Shown: piece by piece, positions 1 to 51,273 of the stretch
Position numbering within the stretch: position 1 is the stretch's first letter
Layout: each line of letters opens with the position of its first letter
DNA from: Cohaesibacter haloalkalitolerans
GTDB taxonomy: Bacteria > Pseudomonadota > Alphaproteobacteria > Rhizobiales > Cohaesibacteraceae
Reading direction: 5' to 3'
DNA: 64,000 nt
Assembly: GCF_003574655.1 (NCBI RefSeq)
Contig: NZ_QNUM01000008.1
Span: forward strand, 1-64,000
The notes under the pieces: model-generated
The model's database searches: none
Told to the model about the DNA's origin: nothing
The model's input: only the letters and a program-made list of their open reading frames with translations
Translations under genes and position numbers: made by a program

Positions 1-127
1 AGTCTTCGTTCATGCGGTCGATCTTCCAGTCCATGAAGGCCCTGAGGAAGTTGCCTTCACCAAACTGGATGATGCGCTCGGTCGGACGGGCCCGCCCGCC
101 AAGATTGCTCTCATTAACGCGTTGCAT
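1..127 (-). CDS. uxaB: Tagaturonate reductase (altronate oxidoreductase), N-terminal fragment
   Basis: Only the first 42 codons are in the window; the gene runs off the left edge. The translated start ([11 protein letters not shown], then the [14 protein letters not shown] block with [10 protein letters not shown]) matches the N-terminus of UxaB, an NAD-dependent mannitol-dehydrogenase-family enzyme whose Rossmann-fold glycine motif sits in that block. UxaB reduces D-tagaturonate to D-altronate in galacturonate breakdown. The ATG at 127-125 follows a purine-rich AGAGGAAA Shine-Dalgarno-like stretch on the minus strand. It lies 60 nt downstream of uxaA, whose product uses altronate, so the two are very probably co-transcribed with uxuA. 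Identity is well supported by this block plus context; the remainder cannot be checked. Confidence 0.85.
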
Positions 128-187: not shown

Positions 188-1723
188 CTACATCACCGCG
201 CCGATCTGCCATGGCACGAATTCATATTCACCAAGCCCCAGAAGCTCGGATTTGGTCTTCTTGCCCGAGGCGACCTCAATGATGTAATCAAGGATCTCGG
301 CGCCCTTGTTTTCAAGGCTGATGCCCTTCGACAGAACATCGCCGCAGTTGATGTCCATGTCGTCCGGCATGGATTCAAACAGATGGTCGTTGGTGGCCAC
401 CTTGATGGTCGGCGATGGCTTGGAGCCGATGGCCGAACCGCGCCCGGTGGTAAAGACGATCATGTGCGCCCCACCGGCAATCTGCCCGGCAGCGCAGGCC
501 GGGTCGTAGCCCGGGGTGTCCATATAGACAAAGCCCGGCTTGTCGATCTTCTCGGCATAGTCAAACACGGCGGTCAGCGGCGTCGAACCGGACTTGGCGG
601 TTGCGCCGAGGGATTTTTCCAGAATGGTCGTCAAACCACCTGCCTTGTTGCCCGGGCTGGGGTTGTTATCGAGGCTGCCTTCGTTGACCTCGACATAATG
701 CTCCCACCACTTGATCTGGGATACCAGCTTGTCGCCGACTTCCTTGCTGGCCGCGCGGCGCAGCAGCAACTGCTCGGCACCATAGATCTCTGGCGTTTCG
801 GACAGGATGGCACTGGCCCCAAGACCGGCCAGCATGTCCGCCGTCTTGCCAAGCGCCGGGTTGGCGGTAATGCCGGAAAAGCCGTCAGAGCCGCCGCACT
901 GCAGCGCGATCTTCAGCTTGCTTGCGGAACAAGGCTCGCGATAGGCCTTGTTCACCTCGGGCAGCAGCTCCAGCACCTTGGCCTTGATGGCATCGATGGT
1001 CTTGCGGGTGCCGCCGACTTCCTGAATGGCGAGGCTGTGAAAATGTTCAAGATTCTGCTGCTTGTCGGCGTCAAAGCGATCTTTCATGCGGCCAATCTGC
1101 ATCACTTCGCAGCCAAGGCCGACGAAGATCGTTGCCCCGACATTCGGGTGGGTCGCATAGCCCCAGAGGGTCCGCTCGAGCACCTCGATGCTCTTGGTGC
1201 CACTCATGCCGCAGCCGGTGCTATGGGCAAGCCCGACAACGCCATCAACATTCTCATACTGATCGAGAACGCCGGACGCCAGAATCTCCTGGCTTGCATG
1301 CCGGATGACCGTTGCCGAACAGTTCACGGTTGCCAGCAGGGCAATATAGTTGCGGGTACCGACTTCACCATTCTTGCGGCGGAACCCCATGAACTCGCGC
1401 CCTTCCATCGACGGGATGGCGGCGGTTGCCTTTTCCAGATCACAGCCGATCTGATAGTCCTGACCATGATCGGAGAATGCCAGATTGTGCGAATGCACAT
1501 GCTCACCTGCAATAATGTCCTGCGTCGCTCGCCCAATCACTTCACCGAACTTGATGACTTCCTCGCCCTTCTTGTGGTCCTTGCGTGCTATCTTGTGCCC
1601 GGCAAAAACATTGCCCTTCAGCGGCGCACCAAGGCCAAGCGGGTCATCGCCGGCCTTGGCGCCGGCCGGTAGAATGGCAATGGTATCGGCAGGATTGAGA
1701 ATGATGGGTGTTGTAGAGGTCAT
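188..1723 (-). CDS. uxaA: Altronate dehydratase
   Basis: 511 aa, the usual length for a full UxaA. It dehydrates D-altronate to 2-keto-3-deoxygluconate (KDG) in galacturonate catabolism. The N-terminal ~100 residues form the small SAF-type domain (IILNPADTIAILPAG... followed by HVHSHN, the conserved HxHNL-like metal segment), and the rest is the large dehydratase domain with MGFRRKNGEVGTRNY, a hallmark of the family, and a TGCGM motif with conserved Cys. The ATG overlaps the TGA of uxuA in an ATGA junction (1720-1723), which fixes the start and implies translational coupling. uxaB follows. Cytoplasmic. Identification is by family motifs and by the neighbouring pathway genes. Confidence 0.95.
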   Translation of the reverse strand: MTSTTPIILNPADTIAILPAGAKAGDDPLGLGAPLKGNVFAGHKIARKDHKKGEEVIKFGEVIGRATQDIIAGEHVHSHNLAFSDHGQDYQIGCDLEKATAAIPSMEGREFMGFRRKNGEVGTRNYIALLATVNCSATVIRHASQEILASGVLDQYENVDGVVGLAHSTGCGMSGTKSIEVLERTLWGYATHPNVGATIFVGLGCEVMQIGRMKDRFDADKQQNLEHFHSLAIQEVGGTRKTIDAIKAKVLELLPEVNKAYREPCSASKLKIALQCGGSDGFSGITANPALGKTADMLAGLGASAILSETPEIYGAEQLLLRRAASKEVGDKLVSQIKWWEHYVEVNEGSLDNNPSPGNKAGGLTTILEKSLGATAKSGSTPLTAVFDYAEKIDKPGFVYMDTPGYDPACAAGQIAGGAHMIVFTTGRGSAIGSKPSPTIKVATNDHLFESMPDDMDINCGDVLSKGISLENKGAEILDYIIEVASGKKTKSELLGLGEYEFVPWQIGAVM

Positions 1724-40397: not shown

Positions 40398-40504
40398 AAT
40401 ACGTATAAACCTCTAATAATTCACGCAAAAACAGGCCCAGTCATGCAGCAATATCAGGGCTGACAAGCGAAAAAGCCTCTTTTGCGCATAAGACGAAAGT
40501 CGTA

Positions 40505-42758: not shown

Positions 42759-43457
42759 TCAGCCGAAAGGGCTGGGGCAGACGAAATCCACCCATTCCCC
42801 CTTGGCCGGATGGATGAAGCCGAGCGTCTCGGCGTGCAGCATCAGCCTGTCAGCGCCAGCCAGTGCCTCACCCTCGGCATAGAAACGATCCCCCATGATC
42901 ACATGCCCGAGGCTGAGCATGTGCACCCGCAACTGGTGTGACCGACCCGTGTGGGGAAATAGCCGCACCAGCGTGCTGTCCTCATCCCGCCCGATCACCT
43001 GCCAGTCGGTCACGGCCCGTCTGCCGTGCTCGAAAGAAACCATCTGTTTGGGGCGGTTCGGCCAGTCGCAGATCAGCGGCAAATCCACCGTTCCCCCATC
43101 GCCAACCATCGTGCCCCAGACCCGCGCCACATAGCTCTTCTGTACCTTGCGCTTCTCGAACTGGCGCCCGAGATTGCGATGGCAATCATCCGTGCGCGCC
43201 AGAACCATGATTCCTGAGGTATCCATGTCGAGCCGGTGAACGATTCGCGCATCCCCGAAATGCTGCCTGGCCCGGTGTTCGAGACAGTCCCAATGCTCAT
43301 CGGCCTTGCCCGGAACACTCAATAGGCCAGATGGCTTGTTGAGAATTACAAAATGCGCATCCTCATAGAGCACATCGAGATAGGGCTCGACGGGCGGGGC
43401 ATAATCGACAAGAGGCGGGGTCAGGCTGGGTGGATGAGACATGCTCTCCATATGCAT
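42759..43457 (-). CDS. RluA-family pseudouridine synthase
   Basis: 232 aa, a single catalytic domain without an S4 domain, as in RluA/TruC. The catalytic Asp lies in IVHRLDMDTSGIMVLA. Other family blocks are LYEDAHFVILNKPSGLLSVPG, KRKVQKSYVARVWG and RLFPHTGRSHQLRVHM with the LGHVIMGDRFYAEG ending. It modifies uridine in rRNA and/or tRNA; E. coli RluA acts on 23S U746 and tRNA position 32, but the substrate here is not certain. The start may be either the Met at 43457 or that at 43442. Stands alone, convergent with the YaiI gene. Confidence 0.92.
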   Translation of the reverse strand: MHMESMSHPPSLTPPLVDYAPPVEPYLDVLYEDAHFVILNKPSGLLSVPGKADEHWDCLEHRARQHFGDARIVHRLDMDTSGIMVLARTDDCHRNLGRQFEKRKVQKSYVARVWGTMVGDGGTVDLPLICDWPNRPKQMVSFEHGRRAVTDWQVIGRDEDSTLVRLFPHTGRSHQLRVHMLSLGHVIMGDRFYAEGEALAGADRLMLHAETLGFIHPAKGEWVDFVCPSPFG

Positions 43458-43965
43458 GAGACCGGCGGCAAGGTCAATCGCCTTGGCGATCCGGGATCGT
43501 TTCAGAAAGTGGGGAAACCTCAGTCAGATCCGCAACCTAGCGCCTGCCGCATCACCATATTGCAACGCAGCAGATCCCCTGTTTTGGCTTCGCAAACGCA
43601 AAATGAAACCCTATGCAATTATACTTTACTCCAAATAAAACTAAAGAAATACTTCCAGTTAAAATGCAAGAAACAAACCATAAATTCAGTATAAATTTCA
43701 CTTACACATCGCCAGACTAAAGGATGACGGAATTATACGAACAATTAATTGAATTGAAAACGTCTCTCATTTTAGATCACTGCAAGGACAGACAGCTGTA
43801 TTCAGCATATCTGTATCTTACAACTCACATGGTCTTGTCCATGACCGGTATAAAAAATGTCGCGGTGCAGCTGAGGAACGGCACCCAAACAGACACAACC
43901 ATCAGGGACAGACCTTTCAGAATGGAACATGAACCGCCAGGCGGTTCAGCACCATGGGGGGAATT
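43458..43965. other. AT-rich intergenic region before the symporter operon
   Basis: About 500 nt. From 43600 to 43720 it is distinctly AT-rich and probably holds the promoter of the DUF4212-symporter genes. A 96-codon frame opens at 43724, but its 3' part runs into the DUF4212 gene in another frame and shows no family likeness; it might be part of the leader. No RNA family or operator was recognised. Confidence 0.4.
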
Positions 43966-44226
43966 ATGGCCGAGAATAACGAATCCGGACATGCCTATTG
44001 GAAAGCCAACCTGAATCTGATCGCGATTTGCCTTGTCATCTGGTTCATCGCCTCCTTCGGGTTTGGTCTGCTTCTTCGTCCTGCTCTTTCGGGAATTTCA
44101 GTCGGCGGGTCCGACCTGGGATTCTGGTTTGCCCAGCAGGGATCAATCTGGGTCTTTCTGGGACTCATCTTCTTCTATGCAATCCGCATGAATGCGATCG
44201 ACAAAAAATTTGGCGTTGAAGAATAA
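43966..44226 (+). CDS. DUF4212 small subunit of a sodium:solute symporter
   Basis: 86 aa with two membrane segments (about residues 16-36 and 54-75). The start MAENNESGHAYWKANLNLIAICLVIWFIASFG matches the DUF4212 family (YWkaNlrli...lviWf..sfg). The ATG at 43966 follows GGGGGG. These small proteins are always next to symporters of the VC_2705 subgroup and are thought to be accessory subunits. The symporter gene follows after 20 nt. Confidence 0.92.
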   Translation: MAENNESGHAYWKANLNLIAICLVIWFIASFGFGLLLRPALSGISVGGSDLGFWFAQQGSIWVFLGLIFFYAIRMNAIDKKFGVEE

Positions 44227-44246
44227 GGAACGCGAGGAGCTAGACC

Positions 44247-46019
44247 ATGGATCTTCAAACTCTTACCTACATCGTTGTAGGCGCGTCCTTTGCGCTCTAC
44301 ATCGGGATTGCCTTCTGGGCACGCGCCGGTTCGACCGGTGAATTCTATGCCGCAGGCCGCGGCGTTCACCCGATCGCCAACGGCATGGCAACCGCTGCCG
44401 ACTGGATGTCCGCAGCCTCCTTCATCTCCATGGCCGGGATCATCTCCTTCAGCGGCTATGGCGCTTCGGCCTATCTGATGGGCTGGACCGGTGGTTACGT
44501 GCTGCTGGCCATGCTGCTGGCCCCTTATCTGCGCAAGTTCGGCAAGTTCACCGTGCCAGAATTCATCGGCGACCGGTTCTATTCATCGACAGCCCGCATC
44601 GTGGCCGTTGTCTGCCTTATCATCTGCTCGATCACCTATGTTATCGGCCAGATGAAGGGCGTTGGCGTTGCCTTCTCCCGCTTCCTCGAAGTGGACGCAT
44701 CCACCGGTCTGCTGATCGGCACCGCGATCGTGTTCCTCTACGCGGTTCAGGGCGGCATGAAGGGCATCACCTACACCCAGATCGCACAGTATTGCGTTCT
44801 GATCCTTGCCTACACCATTCCGGCCATCTTCATCTCCATGGAACTGACCGGCAACATCCTGCCGCAGGTCGGCCTGTTCTCCAACCATGTTTCAGGTGAA
44901 CCGCTGCTGACCAAGCTTGACCAGATCGTGGTTGATCTCGGCTTTGCCGAATACACCAGCTTCACGTCCAATCCGTTCAACATGTTCATGTTCACCATGT
45001 CCCTGATGATTGGTACCGCTGGTCTGCCACACGTCATCATCCGCTTCTTCACCGTGCCGAAGGTTTCCGACGCACGCTGGACGGCGGGCTGGTCCCTGGT
45101 CTTCATCGCGATCCTCTACACCACCGCTCCCGGCGTTGGCGCCATGGCCCGCATGAACCTCATGGACACCATCCAGACCGGCGCAGTCGGCGCAGAAGAC
45201 GGCAACCTGCTGTATGAAAGCCGCCCTGACTGGTTCAAGAACTGGGAAACCACCGGTCTTCTGAAATTCGAAGACAAGAACGGTGACGGCCGCATCCAGT
45301 ATTACAACGACAAGTCCACATCCTTTGCACCGAAAGCCGAAGAATTTGGCTGGAAGGGCAACGAGTTGACCGTCGACCGTGACATCATGGTTCTGGCCAA
45401 CCCTGAAATCGCCAAACTGCCGAACTGGGTGATTGCTCTGGTGGCAGCCGGTGGTCTCGCCGCCGCTCTCTCCACCGCAGCAGGTCTCCTGATGGCCATC
45501 TCCTCGGCTGTTTCCCATGATTTGCTGAAAGGCACCTTCACGCCGCAGATCACCGAGAAGCAGGAACTGATGTGGGCTCGTATCTCCATGGCTGTTGCCA
45601 TCGTGATCTCCGCCTATCTCGGCCTCAATCCTCCGGGCTTTGCTGCTCAGGTTGTGGCTCTGGCCTTCGGTCTGGCTGCCTCCTCGATCTTCCCGGCTCT
45701 GATGATGGGCATCTTCTCCAAGCGAGTAAACTCCAAGGGCGCAATCCTGGGGATGGTCGCCGGTATCGCAACGACCCTGCTCTACATCTTCACCTACAAG
45801 GGCTGGTTCTTCATTCCGGGTACCGCAATGCTGCCAAACACCCCGGACAACCACCTTCTGGGCATCTCTCCGGAAGCATTCGGTACCGTTGGTGCGATCA
45901 TCAACTTCGCAGTTGCCTATGGTGTCTCCGCAATGTCCGCAGAACCTCCCAAGGAGATTCAGGACCTGGTCGAAAGCATCCGCATCCCGAAAGGGGCTGG
46001 CGCTGCCATCGATCACTAG
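44247..46019 (+). CDS. Sodium:solute symporter (VC_2705/ActP-like, probable acetate or monocarboxylate uptake)
   Basis: 590 aa with about 13 membrane segments, an SSS-family protein. Family blocks include FYAAGRGVHPIANGMATAADWMSAASFISMAG, FTVPEFIGDRFYSSTARIVA, GTAGLPHVIIRFFTVP and AALSTAAGLLMAISSAVSHDL. A loop between segments contains FEDKNGDGRIQYYND, resembling a calcium EF-hand loop. In related bacteria this subgroup carries acetate or other short carboxylates with Na+; the exact substrate is not shown. It is followed by a strong terminator and then by signalling genes. Confidence 0.93.
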   Translation: MDLQTLTYIVVGASFALYIGIAFWARAGSTGEFYAAGRGVHPIANGMATAADWMSAASFISMAGIISFSGYGASAYLMGWTGGYVLLAMLLAPYLRKFGKFTVPEFIGDRFYSSTARIVAVVCLIICSITYVIGQMKGVGVAFSRFLEVDASTGLLIGTAIVFLYAVQGGMKGITYTQIAQYCVLILAYTIPAIFISMELTGNILPQVGLFSNHVSGEPLLTKLDQIVVDLGFAEYTSFTSNPFNMFMFTMSLMIGTAGLPHVIIRFFTVPKVSDARWTAGWSLVFIAILYTTAPGVGAMARMNLMDTIQTGAVGAEDGNLLYESRPDWFKNWETTGLLKFEDKNGDGRIQYYNDKSTSFAPKAEEFGWKGNELTVDRDIMVLANPEIAKLPNWVIALVAAGGLAAALSTAAGLLMAISSAVSHDLLKGTFTPQITEKQELMWARISMAVAIVISAYLGLNPPGFAAQVVALAFGLAASSIFPALMMGIFSKRVNSKGAILGMVAGIATTLLYIFTYKGWFFIPGTAMLPNTPDNHLLGISPEAFGTVGAIINFAVAYGVSAMSAEPPKEIQDLVESIRIPKGAGAAIDH

Positions 46020-46080
46020 GATCATCGGCAGCGAGGATCTCCGAGGGGTCCTCGCGGCCCGAGACAAGACACTCTGAGAG

Positions 46081-46112
46081 ATCCCGCCGACCAACTCGGC
46101 GGGATTTTTTTG
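46081..46112 (+). terminator. Intrinsic terminator after the symporter
   Basis: ATCCCGCCGA (46081-46090), loop CCAAC, TCGGCGGGAT (46096-46105), then a run of six T. The start of the next gene is only 25 nt downstream, so it may act as an attenuator for the signalling genes rather than as a full stop. Confidence 0.9.
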
Positions 46113-46136
46113 GCACCCGAGCCCGGAGAACAACTG

Positions 46137-47990
46137 ATGAGCACGTCGGATTTCGCAGAATTCGCAAGCCACAGGCACCCGTTTGACCTGTTGGAAATGG
46201 ACCGTCTGGACACTCTTGGCGACAGCACCATCGCACTGGATGTCAAACAGGGCGATGTCATTCTCGACGTTGGCCAGAAGGTCTCCGGCCTCTATCTCAT
46301 CCGCTCCGGCGAGGTCGATCTGTTCACGCCAGAGGGCAATCTGCTGCTGCACCTGACGATCGGCAACTGTTTTGGCGAGCGCGCCATGCTCAGTGACGGC
46401 AAGGCTCCCAACAAGGCGGTGGCCAGCAGGGACAGCCGCCTGTTCATCATTCCCAAGGCCAGCTTCAACGAGCTGATCACCGCGTCACCCTCCTTTCATG
46501 CCTTCTTCGACAGCTCCCTTGCCAAGAAGGTCGCCGCCGGTGGGCAATCCGATTCCACCACCGACCTCATCTCCATCACCATCGGCGAGCTGATGACCCC
46601 GGCCCCGATCACCATTGGCCCGGACACGACCGCCACCGACGCGGCCAAGCTGATGAAGAGCAGGAATATCTCCTGCCTGCTGATCACCAATCAGGACACC
46701 GAGCAGGACAGATTGATCGGCATCCTGACCTCCGGCGACATGGCGCACAGGGTCGTTGCAGCCGGTCGTAGCCTCGACACCCCGGTTCGCGACATCATGA
46801 CGCCGAACCCCTTCACCCTCGGCCCCGAGGCATTGGGCTTTGACGCCCTGCTCTCGATGATGGAGCGCACGCACACCCATCTGCCGGTGGTCGAAAAGGG
46901 GCGGCTGGTCGGAATTCTCACCAACACCAATCTGGTACACAGGCAAGCCGTCTCCGCTCCCTTCCTGATCCGCGACCTGCAACGGCAGGACAGCTTCGAG
47001 AATCTGGCAGCCATCGTCGCCAAGGTGCCGCAAATGCTGGCCCAGCTGGTCGGCAGCGGTGTTGACGCCCACAACATCGGCCGCATCGTCACCAATGTCA
47101 CCGACAGCCTGACCAGACGTCTGGTGCAACTGGCCGAAGAGCGCCTCGGCAAAGCCCCGATCCCCTATCTATGGCTGGCATGCGGTTCGCAAGGAAGGCA
47201 GGAACAGACCGGCGTGTCCGATCAGGACAATTGCCTCATTCTGGATGAGCGCTACAGCGAAGCTGAACATGGCGACTATTTCCAGCGCTTTGCCCGCTTT
47301 GTCTCCGATGGTCTGGATGCCGCCGGATTCTACTATTGCCCCGGCGACATGATGGCCACCAATCCGCGCTGGTGCCAGCCGGTCCCTGTCTGGCGCAGCT
47401 ATTTCGCCAACTGGATCGACAAGCCAGACCCGATGGCCCAGATGCTTGCCAGCGTCATGTTCGACCTCAGGCCGATTGTCGGAGACGAAAGCCTGTTTGC
47501 GGGCCTCTATCAGGAAACGCTGGAGAAGGCCAAGAAGAACAGCATCTTCCGTGCGCACATGATTTCGAACTCGCTTAACCACACCCCTCCGCTCAGCTTC
47601 TTCCGCGGCTTTGCGCTGATCCGCAAAGGCGAGCACAAGGACACGGTTGATCTCAAGCTCAATGGTGTGGTGCCAATCGTCGATCTAGCCCGCGCCTACG
47701 CCTTGCAGGGTGCCATCACGGCGGCCAACACGCGCGAGCGCCTGACATTGGCCAGAGACATCGGCACGATCAGCCATTCCGGTGCGCAGGATCTCATCGA
47801 CGCCTACGACCTTATCGCCACCATGCGGCTCGAGCATCAGGCCCGCCAGATCCGCGAGGGCAGCAAGCCGGACAACTTCCTCGCCCCTGCCAGTCTCAGC
47901 GAACTGGAACGCAACCATCTCAAGGATGCCTTCCTGATGATCAAGACCCAGCAGTCGGCACTCGGCCACGCACAGGGCGTCAACATCTAG
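46137..47990 (+). CDS. cNMP-binding/CBS/DUF294 nucleotidyltransferase-like signalling protein
   Basis: 617 aa from the ATG at 46137 (GGAG at good spacing; an upstream TTG is less likely). Residues about 20-125 are a cyclic-nucleotide-binding domain (SGLYLIRSGEVDLFTPEGNLLLHLTIGNCFGERAML). Residues about 155-275 are a CBS pair (MTPAPITIGPDTTATDAAKLM; MTPNPFTLGPEALGFDALLSMM). From about residue 345 is the DUF294 nucleotidyltransferase-like domain (ACGSQGRQEQTGVSDQDNCLI), then its C-terminal helical partner. The build resembles GlnD/PII-type sensors that bind AMP/ATP and cNMP. It lies in the symporter-linked gene set and probably tunes transport or acetate metabolism in response to nucleotide state; mechanism is unproven. 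Confidence 0.9.
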   Translation: MSTSDFAEFASHRHPFDLLEMDRLDTLGDSTIALDVKQGDVILDVGQKVSGLYLIRSGEVDLFTPEGNLLLHLTIGNCFGERAMLSDGKAPNKAVASRDSRLFIIPKASFNELITASPSFHAFFDSSLAKKVAAGGQSDSTTDLISITIGELMTPAPITIGPDTTATDAAKLMKSRNISCLLITNQDTEQDRLIGILTSGDMAHRVVAAGRSLDTPVRDIMTPNPFTLGPEALGFDALLSMMERTHTHLPVVEKGRLVGILTNTNLVHRQAVSAPFLIRDLQRQDSFENLAAIVAKVPQMLAQLVGSGVDAHNIGRIVTNVTDSLTRRLVQLAEERLGKAPIPYLWLACGSQGRQEQTGVSDQDNCLILDERYSEAEHGDYFQRFARFVSDGLDAAGFYYCPGDMMATNPRWCQPVPVWRSYFANWIDKPDPMAQMLASVMFDLRPIVGDESLFAGLYQETLEKAKKNSIFRAHMISNSLNHTPPLSFFRGFALIRKGEHKDTVDLKLNGVVPIVDLARAYALQGAITAANTRERLTLARDIGTISHSGAQDLIDAYDLIATMRLEHQARQIREGSKPDNFLAPASLSELERNHLKDAFLMIKTQQSALGHAQGVNI

Positions 47991-48107
47991 CCCCTTCGCT
48001 CTAAGCCATTGGGCGACCTACCAAATGCTGTCTTACCAGAGACAGCCGTTCCGTGTCACAAGAACCCGGACGCAATTAAGGCCACGGCCAACCTGAGGAG
48101 CCTTCGA

Positions 48108-48629
48108 ATGATATTCGTCTTGCTTGGAACATTCATCGCCGGCATCGGTGCGGCGGGGGCTGTGATGGTTCTCTACAAGTTCATCCTGCATCGCCCACGG
48201 CCCAAAGGCGCTGTGCCCGTCGCGGCCGGCATTGCCATGATCCTTCTGCAGATCGTGCTCGATTATGGCTGGTACAGTCGCGCAACCGCCGATTTTGGCG
48301 ATGATGTGGTGGTTCTGCAAACCCGTGAGGGCACCAGCCTGTTGCAGCCGTTATCCTTCCTTTTCCCGCGGACTGATCGCTTTCTGGCTCTCGACAAGAC
48401 AAGCATCAAGACCAATGACGCCCTGCCCGGCATCAAGCTGGCAACCCTGTTTCAGGCTGAAAAGGATGGCCCGACCAGCACCATCCTGCAATTGATTGAT
48501 TGCACAGGAAGCCGCCGCGCCGACTGGAGCGGAACCCTGCCTCCGACGCAGGAGGAACTGCAAGGCAAGGCCAAATGGTTCGATCTCGACAAGCAGGATC
48601 CGCTGCTGATAGCCGCCTGCGAGGAATAG
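48108..48629 (+). CDS. Small membrane protein of unknown function
   Basis: 173 aa from MIFVLLGTFIAGIG; this ATG follows GAGG and gives two clean N-terminal membrane segments (about 3-25 and 36-56). The remaining ~115 residues are soluble and probably periplasmic, with GDDVVVLQTREGTSLLQPLSFLFPRTDRF and a C-terminal KWFDLDKQDPLLIAACEE. I do not recognise a family. Starting at an upstream in-frame ATG (48009) would add 33 polar residues before the first membrane segment. It sits between the DUF294 protein and the lone receiver domain, in the same direction. Confidence 0.75.
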   Translation: MIFVLLGTFIAGIGAAGAVMVLYKFILHRPRPKGAVPVAAGIAMILLQIVLDYGWYSRATADFGDDVVVLQTREGTSLLQPLSFLFPRTDRFLALDKTSIKTNDALPGIKLATLFQAEKDGPTSTILQLIDCTGSRRADWSGTLPPTQEELQGKAKWFDLDKQDPLLIAACEE

Positions 48630-48738
48630 AGGAGAAGGACAACAGACCGTGTGACGCCGGGCAGGTGTGATAGCATAGACCCGGGGAGCACCCTCCCCGA
48701 CAGAACCGTCCCCCGGTAGCAACGGTCAAGGAGACCAC

Positions 48739-49104
48739 ATGACAAAGTCAATTCTGGTGGTAGACGACGAGGCATCCATCGCCTTTGCGCTGGAACATCT
48801 GATGCGCGCCGAGGGCTATGCTGTTGAGACGGCCCGCACCGGCCACGATGCCATCGACTGCGCCTGCCATCACCATCCGGACCTCATCCTGCTCGACAGC
48901 TCGCTGCCCGACAGGGACGGTTATGACATCTGCCAGACCATCCGTTCGGACACAGCCAATGCCGACGTCAAGATCGTCATGATGAACGCCTCCAGCCGCG
49001 AGATAGAGGCGGAAAAGGGACTGGCGGTCGGAGCCAACGGTTCGCTGACCAAACCCTTCTCGCTGAATGCGGTCGTGCGTTGCGTCAAAGATCTGCTGGA
49101 GTAG
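48739..49104 (+). CDS. Single-domain response regulator
   Basis: 121 aa, a CheY-like receiver domain alone with no output domain. Acid pocket Asp9/Asp10, phosphorylation site Asp53 (LILLDSSLPD) and Lys105 (TKPF) are present. The usual Thr/Ser after beta-4 is replaced by Asn83 in VMMNAS, which may alter signalling. It is 9 nt upstream of the pseudo-kinase/exonuclease gene and presumably works with it or with a kinase encoded elsewhere. ATG follows AAGGAG. Confidence 0.9.
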   Translation: MTKSILVVDDEASIAFALEHLMRAEGYAVETARTGHDAIDCACHHHPDLILLDSSLPDRDGYDICQTIRSDTANADVKIVMMNASSREIEAEKGLAVGANGSLTKPFSLNAVVRCVKDLLE

Positions 49105-49113
49105 ACCACACCC

Positions 49114-51273
49114 ATGCCAGACCCGATGACCAGACTTGAACGCCTGAGCCTGCGACTTCGCATCTTCCTCTTCTTTGCGCTCATCGGACTGGCCTCCTGT
49201 GCCGTGGTCGTCGCCTGCCTTGTCTTCGCCGAGCAACGGATCGGCCCGGCCGCAACGCCCCATCTGGTGCTGTTTGGCGGCATCGCCTGTTTCGGCATCC
49301 TGTTTGTCACCGGCTGGGTCTGGCAGAAATTCGATCTCAACGTCGCCCAGCCCATCGAGCGGATCGTCAAGGACGTCCGCTCGCTCGTCCATGCCGGGGC
49401 CTCCCGTCAGCTCGACAGCGAAACCGGCAAATATCTGGGCCTGCTCAATCCGGCCATCCGCGAGATTGCCGGAGCCCTCACCGAGGCGCGAGAGGAAACC
49501 GACAGGCGGATCGCCGAAGCCACAACGGAGACCCACAAACAGACGGCACAGCTGGAAAGCGTGATCCGCAATCTCGATCAGGGCGTCCTCATCTGCACCA
49601 TGGGCAGCAAGATCATGCTCTACAACAAGCGGGCGCTGCAGATTCTCCATGTATCCGGCGATCTCGGGCTCGGCCGCTCGCTGTTTTCGGTCGTCTCAGC
49701 AGCTCCCTTCCGCCACGCCATCGAGCGCCTCGGTCACCGTCTTGAGCAAGGCCGCCACAGGCACCACAAGGAAGGGCTCAGCCAGCTCGTCATCTGCGCC
49801 ACGGCCGATGGCAAACACACATTGCAGGGGCGGGTTACACTGCTGCTGGATCAGGCAGCGAAGGCCCCGACCGGCTTCATCGTGACCTTTGACGACATGA
49901 CCCGCCAGTTGGCGGACAATGTCGAGAGGGACAGCCTGCTGCAGACCGTGCTGGTCGACCTGCGCCATCCGGCCGCCAATCTGCTGGCCACATCCGAGAT
50001 GCTCGCTGGCGGCTATGCCCTTGCAGCCGACGCGAGAAAGACCCTGGAACAGATGATCGCCGGAGAAGCGGCCAGACTGTCCGAACGGCTCGCGCATTAC
50101 GACCAGCAATCCCATGACATGTTGACCAGCGCCTGGCCGATGAGCGATGTCTATTCCTCCTCGCTGTTCAACTCGGTCTTGCGCCGCAACAGCTCGGAAT
50201 CCCTCAAGGTGACTTGCGAGTTCATTGGCGATCCGGTCTGGCTGCATTGCGATTCGATCACCATTGTCGAGCTGATCGAATATGCCCTGCGCAAGGTGGC
50301 CGAGGCCACCGGCGAACGCGCCTTTCAGTTGCGGGCCACAGAGTTCGAGCGCAAGATCTATGTTGATCTGCATTGGCACGGCGAGCCGTTGAGCGTTGCC
50401 CGCATCAACGCCTGGCTCGACGATCCGCTGGATCCGGATCTGGGAGGCATCACCAGCCGGGACGTGCTCTATCGCCACAAGACCGACTATTGGAGCGCCC
50501 GGGCACCCGACGGCACCGCCCACCTACGCCTGCCGCTCTCCCTGCCCCATGACCACCATTCAAGCCAGACTCTGGACGAGCAGACCCTGTTGCTGCCCGA
50601 CCGGCTGGAATTCTACGACTTCGATCTGATGGAGCGGGAATATCTCGGCGCACTGGAGGATCGGCCCCTGCGTGATCTGGACTATGTGGTGTTCGACACG
50701 GAAACCACCGGCCTTGACCCGTCCGGCGGCGACGAGATCATTTCGATCGCCGGGGTGCGCATCGTCAATGGCCGCATCATGCATGGCGAGCTCTTCGACC
50801 ACTACGTCAATCCGGGTCGCTCCATTCCCCCGGCGTCCACGAAGATCCACCACATCACCAACGAGATGGTGGCCAACGCGGCCCCGGTGGAAACGGTTCT
50901 GCCGCGCTTTCAGGCCTTTGTCAGCGATGCGGTGCTGGTGGCCCACAATGCCGCCTTCGACATGAAATTCCTGACCCTCAAGCAGGACAAAGCCGGTGTC
51001 CGCTTCACCAATCCGGTGCTGGATACAGTGCTGCTGGCCGCCCACCTGCAGGGCCAGACCAGCAGCCTCACGCTTGACGCCCTCGCCGAGCAGTTCGGCA
51101 TCGAAATTCCTGTCGACATGCGCCACACCGCCCTTGGCGACTCGCTGGCAACCGCAGAGGTGCTGCTGCGTCTCATCGACCTTCTGGAAGCCTCGGGCAT
51201 CAAGACCCTGCGCGACGCCGTCGAGGCGGAAAAGAAAGCCGAAGCAATCCGCCGCCAGCAGGCCCGCTATTGA
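49114..51273 (+). CDS. Membrane PAS pseudo-histidine kinase fused to a DnaQ-type (DEDDh) exonuclease
   Basis: 719 aa. Two N-terminal membrane segments (about 15-38 and 48-70) are followed by a coiled linker, a PAS domain (about 145-260), a degenerate HisKA-like helix pair (VLVDLRHPAANLLATSEML, where the phospho-acceptor His of the H-box is a Val) and a worn HATPase region. Residues about 524-695 are a DnaQ/DEDDh 3'-5' exonuclease: FDTETTGLDP (Asp528, Glu530), HNAAFDMKFL and HTALGDSLATAEV (H-x4-D) keep the catalytic set. So a sensor chassis carries an intact nuclease output. Its target could be RNA, DNA or a signalling oligonucleotide. The gene ends by overlapping the DMT gene on the other strand by 7 nt. 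Confidence 0.88.
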   Translation: MPDPMTRLERLSLRLRIFLFFALIGLASCAVVVACLVFAEQRIGPAATPHLVLFGGIACFGILFVTGWVWQKFDLNVAQPIERIVKDVRSLVHAGASRQLDSETGKYLGLLNPAIREIAGALTEAREETDRRIAEATTETHKQTAQLESVIRNLDQGVLICTMGSKIMLYNKRALQILHVSGDLGLGRSLFSVVSAAPFRHAIERLGHRLEQGRHRHHKEGLSQLVICATADGKHTLQGRVTLLLDQAAKAPTGFIVTFDDMTRQLADNVERDSLLQTVLVDLRHPAANLLATSEMLAGGYALAADARKTLEQMIAGEAARLSERLAHYDQQSHDMLTSAWPMSDVYSSSLFNSVLRRNSSESLKVTCEFIGDPVWLHCDSITIVELIEYALRKVAEATGERAFQLRATEFERKIYVDLHWHGEPLSVARINAWLDDPLDPDLGGITSRDVLYRHKTDYWSARAPDGTAHLRLPLSLPHDHHSSQTLDEQTLLLPDRLEFYDFDLMEREYLGALEDRPLRDLDYVVFDTETTGLDPSGGDEIISIAGVRIVNGRIMHGELFDHYVNPGRSIPPASTKIHHITNEMVANAAPVETVLPRFQAFVSDAVLVAHNAAFDMKFLTLKQDKAGVRFTNPVLDTVLLAAHLQGQTSSLTLDALAEQFGIEIPVDMRHTALGDSLATAEVLLRLIDLLEASGIKTLRDAVEAEKKAEAIRRQQARY

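Follow-up and report, generated by a model that had tools for sequence, protein, structure and literature searches.

A possible nucleotide-mark switch beside a probable carboxylate symporter of Cohaesibacter haloalkalitolerans: a DUF294 nucleotidyltransferase paired with a pseudokinase-borne exonuclease

In Pseudomonas putida the genes PP_0354, encoding a CBS-domain protein, and PP_0353, encoding a protein of the RNase_T family, form an operon whose promoter is bound by ErdR, and growth of the strain on pyruvate is slowed by deletion of PP_0353 or actP-I, not by that of PP_0354 (PMC9927547). Homologues of the pair lie beside actP in P. aeruginosa, the operon belongs to the MxtR/ErdR (CrbS/CrbR) regulon and the P. 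fluorescens homologue of PP_0354 is a nucleotidyltransferase (PMC9927547, PMC5715377). Here we describe a related locus in a 64,000-nucleotide stretch of Cohaesibacter haloalkalitolerans (contig NZ_QNUM01000008.1, positions 1 to 64,000; in the following the window), where a CBS gene that also encodes a nucleotidyltransferase, of the DUF294 type, is likewise followed by a gene for an RNase_T-family exonuclease, and where the pair is likewise linked to a probable monocarboxylate symporter and, in many relatives, to an SLC5-type sensor kinase. Unlike PP_0353, for which the available text describes no PAS domain, pseudokinase or lone receiver and where the described control is transcriptional, the exonuclease of the window is part of a 719-residue membrane protein with a PAS domain and a histidine-kinase-like core, encoded next to a stand-alone receiver.

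Further relatives have been touched upon in the literature. Pflu5625, a cAMP/CBS/nucleotidyltransferase protein, belongs to the CrbS/R regulon and its deletion has a negligible effect on acetate, and regulation of proteins by nucleotidylation has been predicted for this DUF294-type protein, as relayed in the same source (PMC5715377). The genes PA3232-PA3235 are up during growth on propionate and PA3233-PA3235 are down after propionate addition, and deletion of the symporter causes no growth defect on propionate (PMC9765439). DUF294_C has been grouped with the C-terminal domains of GlnD and GlnE (PMC3710099), and in the literature found no reaction of DUF294 proteins was shown. The association of symporter, transferase and exonuclease is partly published, with a phenotype on pyruvate instead of acetate, the carboxylate that an initial annotation of the window had put forward (PMC9927547). 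Neither a pseudokinase-exonuclease fusion nor a mechanism for the enzyme pair is described in the available text of the open-licence literature searched, in line with the same annotation, which had called the mechanism undescribed.

Pairing of the nucleotidyltransferase with an exonuclease

We compiled 80 symporter loci matching TIGR03648, about one per genus, and usually included 8.5 kb of sequence to either side, less where contigs end. The starting point was 125 matches, spread over 121 of the 398 genomes; 81 of these matches were picked and one of the 81 was left out. Of the 80 loci, 54 contain DUF294, and 50 of the 54 have an exonuclease as well; among the remaining 26 loci one has an exonuclease (Fisher p = 1.6e-15, without correction for phylogeny). 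The pairing is also seen away from the symporter. Among 40 DUF294_C loci that were hand-picked outside symporter loci and not drawn at random (8.4-kb stretches; the nearest, L253, about 13.6 kb away), an exonuclease gene lies in the stretch at 35, being downstream on the same strand in 32 of the 35 and within 25 bases in 29. Of the five loci without it, L274 comes from a short contig and L264 is truncated by its stretch, with parts of a receiver and a pseudokinase visible. Furthermore, both enzymes occur as one chain: of 150 genomes of the order, 26 have a single frame matching exonuclease, CBS and transferase over almost its whole length, and one more has such a match in two pieces. The domains of the fusion were recognised by Pfam in L195 and by custom profiles in seven more loci, L234 scoring weakly for the exonuclease; three of these seven adjoin a DUF4212 symporter (L237, L239, L240), two an SLC5 kinase (L234, L235) and two neither of them. 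Because the genes are so frequently adjacent and naturally fused, the simplest account has the two enzymes catalysing opposing reactions on a single substrate, and we consider it quite probable that they share their substrate.

DUF294 proteins are widespread: in the sample of the phylum from which the 40 DUF294_C loci were chosen, 94 of 249 genomes encode DUF294_C. Three symporter loci (L182, L183, L185) contain a pair of distinct DUF294 genes at a short distance from one another, and at L182 and L183 each of the two has an exonuclease gene of its own. In a neighbourhood survey of 29 related loci, covering about 1.5 kb to either side, the receiver was found in 26 and DUF294 in 24. The three other genomes of the genus that the search of the order retrieved all keep the full gene set, two of them as one run (L229, L230), the third split into symporter, transferase and membrane protein on the one hand and receiver and pseudokinase on the other, about 116 kb apart (L231, L232). 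Thus the conservation of the neighbourhood that had initially been expected is seen, but not as a fixed five-gene chain: its tight core is the nucleotidyltransferase together with the exonuclease.

The phylogenetic tree of the exonucleases, built from the window protein, a random 40 of 94 long forms, 40 short, 13 fused and 19 housekeeping sequences, unites 39 of the 41 long forms in one clade (support 1.0) with no housekeeping sequence within it, 37 of the 40 short forms in another (0.97) and all 13 fused forms in a third (0.97), while 18 of the 19 housekeeping exonucleases fall together with one short form (0.96). A single origin of all paired exonucleases does not follow, as the tree splits the long, short and fused clades and, with only housekeeping DnaQ-type sequences as outgroup, one or several recruitments fit. 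PP_0353, which is absent from the tree, is probably a member of the short-form clade, which is separate from that of the long form. At the column of the second Asp, 16 of the 40 short forms have no Asp, Glu standing there in 14, and misalignment may be the cause. The long membrane form is present in 12 of the 80 symporter loci, including five variants of 465-508 residues (L160, L164, L167, L170, L174) that retain the exonuclease and some of the N-terminal region, lack the DHp/CA core and have no receiver close by.

Turning to the transferase, the motif residues G350, S351, R354, D362, D364 and D443 (GS..R, DxD and third Asp) are present in all 53 aligned DUF294 proteins. The AlphaFold2 model of the window protein (predicted local distance difference test, pLDDT, 91.7) was compared with solved structures by Foldseek, where 801 matches passed E 0.001 and our statements cover the 50 listed. 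Among these GlnE 1v4a ranks first (template-modelling score, TM-score, 0.52 by target, 14% identity) and DrrA 6yx5 second (TM-score 0.69 by target, 12% identity). GlnE and DrrA are protein-adenylylating enzymes, and like them the DUF294 protein is predicted to combine the transferase fold with a C-terminal helical domain, its catalytic motif residues being present. GlnE carries its own removing domain. In the window protein Pfam finds only one nucleotidyltransferase domain and no tandem pair of removing and adenylylating domains, and it is therefore not classed as GlnE; the removing would be done here by an exonuclease, separate or fused, and a cNMP-fold domain and CBS domains are added. As the phosphate-binding cassette of the cNMP fold is degenerate (Glu81 in 10 of 53), cyclic-nucleotide sensing by this domain is doubtful, and so is an energy signal acting through it, an energy state being one of the inputs that the initial annotation had suggested for the signalling chain.

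Pseudokinase, lone receiver and SLC5-type sensor kinase

The 719-residue protein was modelled with AlphaFold2 from 55 aligned sequences, to which all of its residue counts refer (pLDDT 86.9, predicted TM-score 0.64). As in the PAS kinases WalK and VicK, a membrane part, a PAS domain and DHp-like and CA-like folds follow each other in the same order. Foldseek matches the N-terminal part to the kinases WalK, VicK and ThkA with whole-chain TM-scores of 0.25-0.44 by target, which are low because the domains are arranged differently, and a profile match to VicK 4i5s reaches E 1e-10. In contrast to WalK and VicK, the protein has an exonuclease as output and its kinase residues are lost throughout: H-box position 281 is Val in the window protein, none of the 55 sequences has a phospho-acceptor His at this column (Glu in 38, Asp in 6), none has the N-box Asn of the ATP-binding domain (column 390) and HATPase_c is not among the 15 Pfam families matched by any of the 55 members at E 0.01. 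Judged from sequence and model, the protein is a pseudokinase, with a dead histidine-kinase core and a DHp-CA fold predicted to be kept. Its exonuclease domain finds DnaQ (TM-score 0.84 by target) and PolC exonucleases in Foldseek, and the DEDDh residues D528, E530, D616, H671 and D676 are conserved in all 55 sequences; by these residues the domain is predicted to be catalytically intact. The Val in place of the H-box His and the complete set of DnaQ residues had already been noticed in the initial annotation; both stand, the model adds a kinase-like fold joined to an exonuclease domain, and the missing N-box Asn is a further loss.

A near full-length relative of this protein was found in 26 of 199 other genomes of the phylum, with a match to its second half in 2 more and a short form in 3. 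According to their titles, the best 80 of 545 relatives from a scan of named genomes belong to alpha-, beta- and gammaproteobacteria, Magnetococcales, deltaproteobacterial groups and one Nitrospirota bin. A Cohaesibacter bin, with 68% identity, is the closest of these 80.

At 61 of 81 genes for the pseudokinase-exonuclease the receiver gene is located directly upstream. A receiver lies within 1.5 kb of 69 of 80 genes with detectable DHp and CA against 1 of 11 without them, where 9 of the 11 are one family and the counts are not corrected for phylogeny; the symporter loci include two members of this family with a DHp, and both of them have the receiver. Since receiver and DHp are lost jointly, the comparison points to the pseudo-DHp as the putative docking site of the receiver. 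Across the 69 rows of the receiver alignment D53 is kept in 68, K105 in 69 and Thr/Ser83 in 68.

Of 80 pseudokinase loci, 43 carry an SLC5-type sensor kinase; among the 61 loci whose stretch reaches at least 4.5 kb upstream, 26 have this kinase gene upstream in the same orientation at a distance of no more than 1.5 kb. The former count depends for the most part on searching with the L078 protein, whereas the protein of the own genome alone under a stricter rule gives 1 of 80, because the kinase parts of the two queries are only distantly alike. The SLC5 assignment itself is based on the SLC5 parts of the neighbour kinase and the own-genome protein, which are 43% identical over about 700 residues; all eight scanned neighbour kinases show HisKA and HATPase_c above the cut-off, and the SSF model of Pfam was matched weakly in two. 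The own-genome kinase, encoded on contig 17, scores above the SSF cut-off and comprises PAS, HisKA, HATPase and receiver domains. With an SLC5-like part, HisKA and HATPase the neighbour kinase resembles the SLC5-STAC kinases CrbS, CbrA and RpuS, and kinases of this class in Sinorhizobium are covered by PMC9100948. The known partners of CrbS, CbrA and RpuS are transcription regulators, whereas here a receiver without output domain stands beside a nuclease. The adjoining SLC5 kinase of the CrbS/CbrA kind probably serves as phosphodonor of the receiver in many relatives. The signalling set, initially regarded as full, holds in that the receiver goes with the pseudokinase, but its probable input kinase, in this genome on another contig, had been overlooked.

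Organization of the locus

The six genes (Table 1) agree in position, strand and domains with the initial annotation, the families of five being backed by Pfam and NCBIfam and the small membrane protein having no match in Pfam or NCBIfam. The symporter scores above the curated cut-off of TIGR03648 and has its DUF4212 partner, encoded 20 bases upstream, which upholds the proposed symporter link; by analogy with its relatives it is a probable monocarboxylate importer. The start of the small membrane protein is likely at 48108 rather than 48009, judging by a same-genus orthologue of 173 residues. Its unnamed family of about 173 residues occurs in 23 of the 80 symporter loci, in 3 of these without DUF294, and goes with the symporter.

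Table 1. Genes of the symporter locus (positions in the window) and layout of the 719-residue protein (residue numbers).
Feature	Position	Strand	Evidence
DUF4212 small symporter subunit	43966-44226	+	PF13937 E 7e-32, TIGR03647 E 4e-31
VC_2705-type Na+/solute symporter (SLC5/SSS)	44247-46019	+	TIGR03648, 845.1 bits vs cut-off 320.75
DUF294 protein (cNMP_binding, two CBS, DUF294, DUF294_C); candidate 'writer'	46137-47990	+	Pfam
Small membrane protein, 173 residues, hydrophobic N-terminal segments	48108-48629	+	hydropathy
Stand-alone receiver	48739-49104	+	Response_reg E 4e-26
719-residue membrane PAS pseudo-histidine-kinase with DEDDh exonuclease; candidate gated 'eraser'	49114-51273	+	Pfam PAS, RNase_T
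N-terminal helices (membrane part)	residues 7-43, 45-94		model
PAS	residues 153-262		model
DHp-like	residues 263-340		model
CA-like	residues 344-476		model
Disordered linker	residues 485-511		model
Exonuclease	residues ~519-690		model

With one mismatch allowed, no ACTU (CrbR) inverted repeat was found in 43457-43966, using a pattern taken from four printed examples, and the motif may differ in this class. Across the window the ACTU-like pattern gives 10 matches against 6.8 expected, which is chance level. An exact ACTU-like match, TACGACTTTCGTCTTAT, is located at 40488-40504 on the - strand, away from the symporter operon.

A reversible nucleotide mark and its alternatives

Our preferred reading, which we put forward tentatively, is a reversible nucleotide-mark switch beside a carboxylate symporter. 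The DUF294 protein, being GlnE/DrrA-like, would add one or more nucleotides to a target, most likely a protein and perhaps the symporter or its partner, and the DEDDh exonuclease would remove the mark. In this lineage the eraser would be held at the membrane, carried by the dead PAS histidine kinase, and the lone receiver would dock on the pseudo-DHp and thereby switch the nuclease; that such docking gates the nuclease seems rather likely to us. A protein target is favoured because of the fold match to GlnE and DrrA, so that a protein-linked mark is conceivable, with RNA ends a more doubtful place for it and an oligonucleotide messenger an unlikely one. The P. putida phenotypes are as expected if a harmful mark accumulates in the absence of the eraser and loss of the writer is silent. 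That the transferase is a writer is an idea already published, while the exonuclease as eraser is inferred by us; a precedent for a nuclease removing adenosine monophosphate (AMP) is RNase Z, which acts as deAMPylase (PMC12663964). The complete two-component chain, in which an SLC5 transceptor kinase, the receiver and the dead kinase would gate a DEDDh exonuclease stripping nucleotides that the DUF294 enzyme puts on a protein, perhaps the symporter, is unlikely to be right in all of its parts.

Several observations weigh against the switch. RNase T belongs to the DEDDh class. This 3' exonuclease did not remove AMP from SodA-AMP (PMC12663964). As PP_0353 probably sits in another clade, its phenotype may not transfer to this locus. 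When residues of the symporter or DUF4212 were inspected for a modification site tracking the transferase, none stood out. The matches to GlnE and DrrA are loose over the whole chain, as is that to WalK (TM-score 0.25 by target, root-mean-square deviation 19), and a weak HisKA match remains in 5 of the 55 pseudokinase members (best E 8e-5). DUF294 is missing from the stretch at 28 of 80 pseudokinase-exonuclease loci, several of them on short contigs, a nearby receiver is lacking for 11 of the 80 genes that encode DHp and CA, and the window operon itself contains no SLC5 kinase. The window receiver keeps D53 and K105, but its switch Thr/Ser83 is replaced by Asn, the sole exception at this position among the 69 rows, and Tyr/Phe102 by Ser. 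The same-genus receiver L230:3259-3624 is also without Thr/Ser83 (Asn) and the aromatic residue 102 (Ser or Ala), with D53 and K105 kept, and the receivers of L033, L229 and L231 keep Ser83 and Tyr102; control may therefore have changed in the branch of the window and L230 receivers.

Instead of marking a protein, the pair could form an RNA-end module in which the transferase extends 3' ends of mRNA, small RNA or tRNA and the exonuclease trims them, so that expression of carbon and transport genes would be tuned post-transcriptionally. The 3' ends of nucleic acids are common substrates of RNase_T/DnaQ-like exonucleases. Moreover, mRNA decay has been suggested by the authors of the P. putida work (PMC9927547). 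Nevertheless, among the 50 listed of the 801 structure matches of the DUF294 protein there is no CCA-adding enzyme or poly(A) polymerase, the adenylyltransferases GlnE and DrrA being two kinds that act on proteins, and Pfam shows no RNA-binding domain in the DUF294 or the 719-residue protein, which leaves this account rather unlikely. We give less credence still to a second-messenger module, where the transferase would make a linear oligonucleotide sensed by the cNMP and CBS domains or by the symporter and the exonuclease would degrade it, as oligoribonuclease does with pGpG. A maker-like and a degrader-like enzyme are indeed paired and fused and the maker bears cNMP-fold and CBS domains, but the cNMP cassette is degenerate, the same 50 structure matches include no cyclic-dinucleotide synthase and a cyclic product would be unfit for 3'-5' exonucleases, as these require a free 3' end. 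Finally, a DNA-repair or housekeeping nuclease merely localised by the pseudokinase, in a neighbourhood that reflects CrbS/CrbR-type co-regulation with no shared reaction, is improbable, since the proofreading subunits DnaQ and PolC are the nearest solved relatives of the exonuclease domain but DUF294 frequently adjoins it directly away from the symporter and in single-chain fusions, and the long-form clade is free of housekeeping sequences, which nearly all group elsewhere.

For the preferred switch, the exonuclease partner, the fusions and the exonuclease-only defect of P. putida make the idea of one mark being written and erased directly open to epistasis. If it is true, reversible nucleotidylation with an exonuclease as eraser would be widespread. 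If the pseudokinase gates the nuclease, a signalling chain fed by symporter-type sensor kinases would have a non-transcriptional output, which would be unusual in bacterial signalling.

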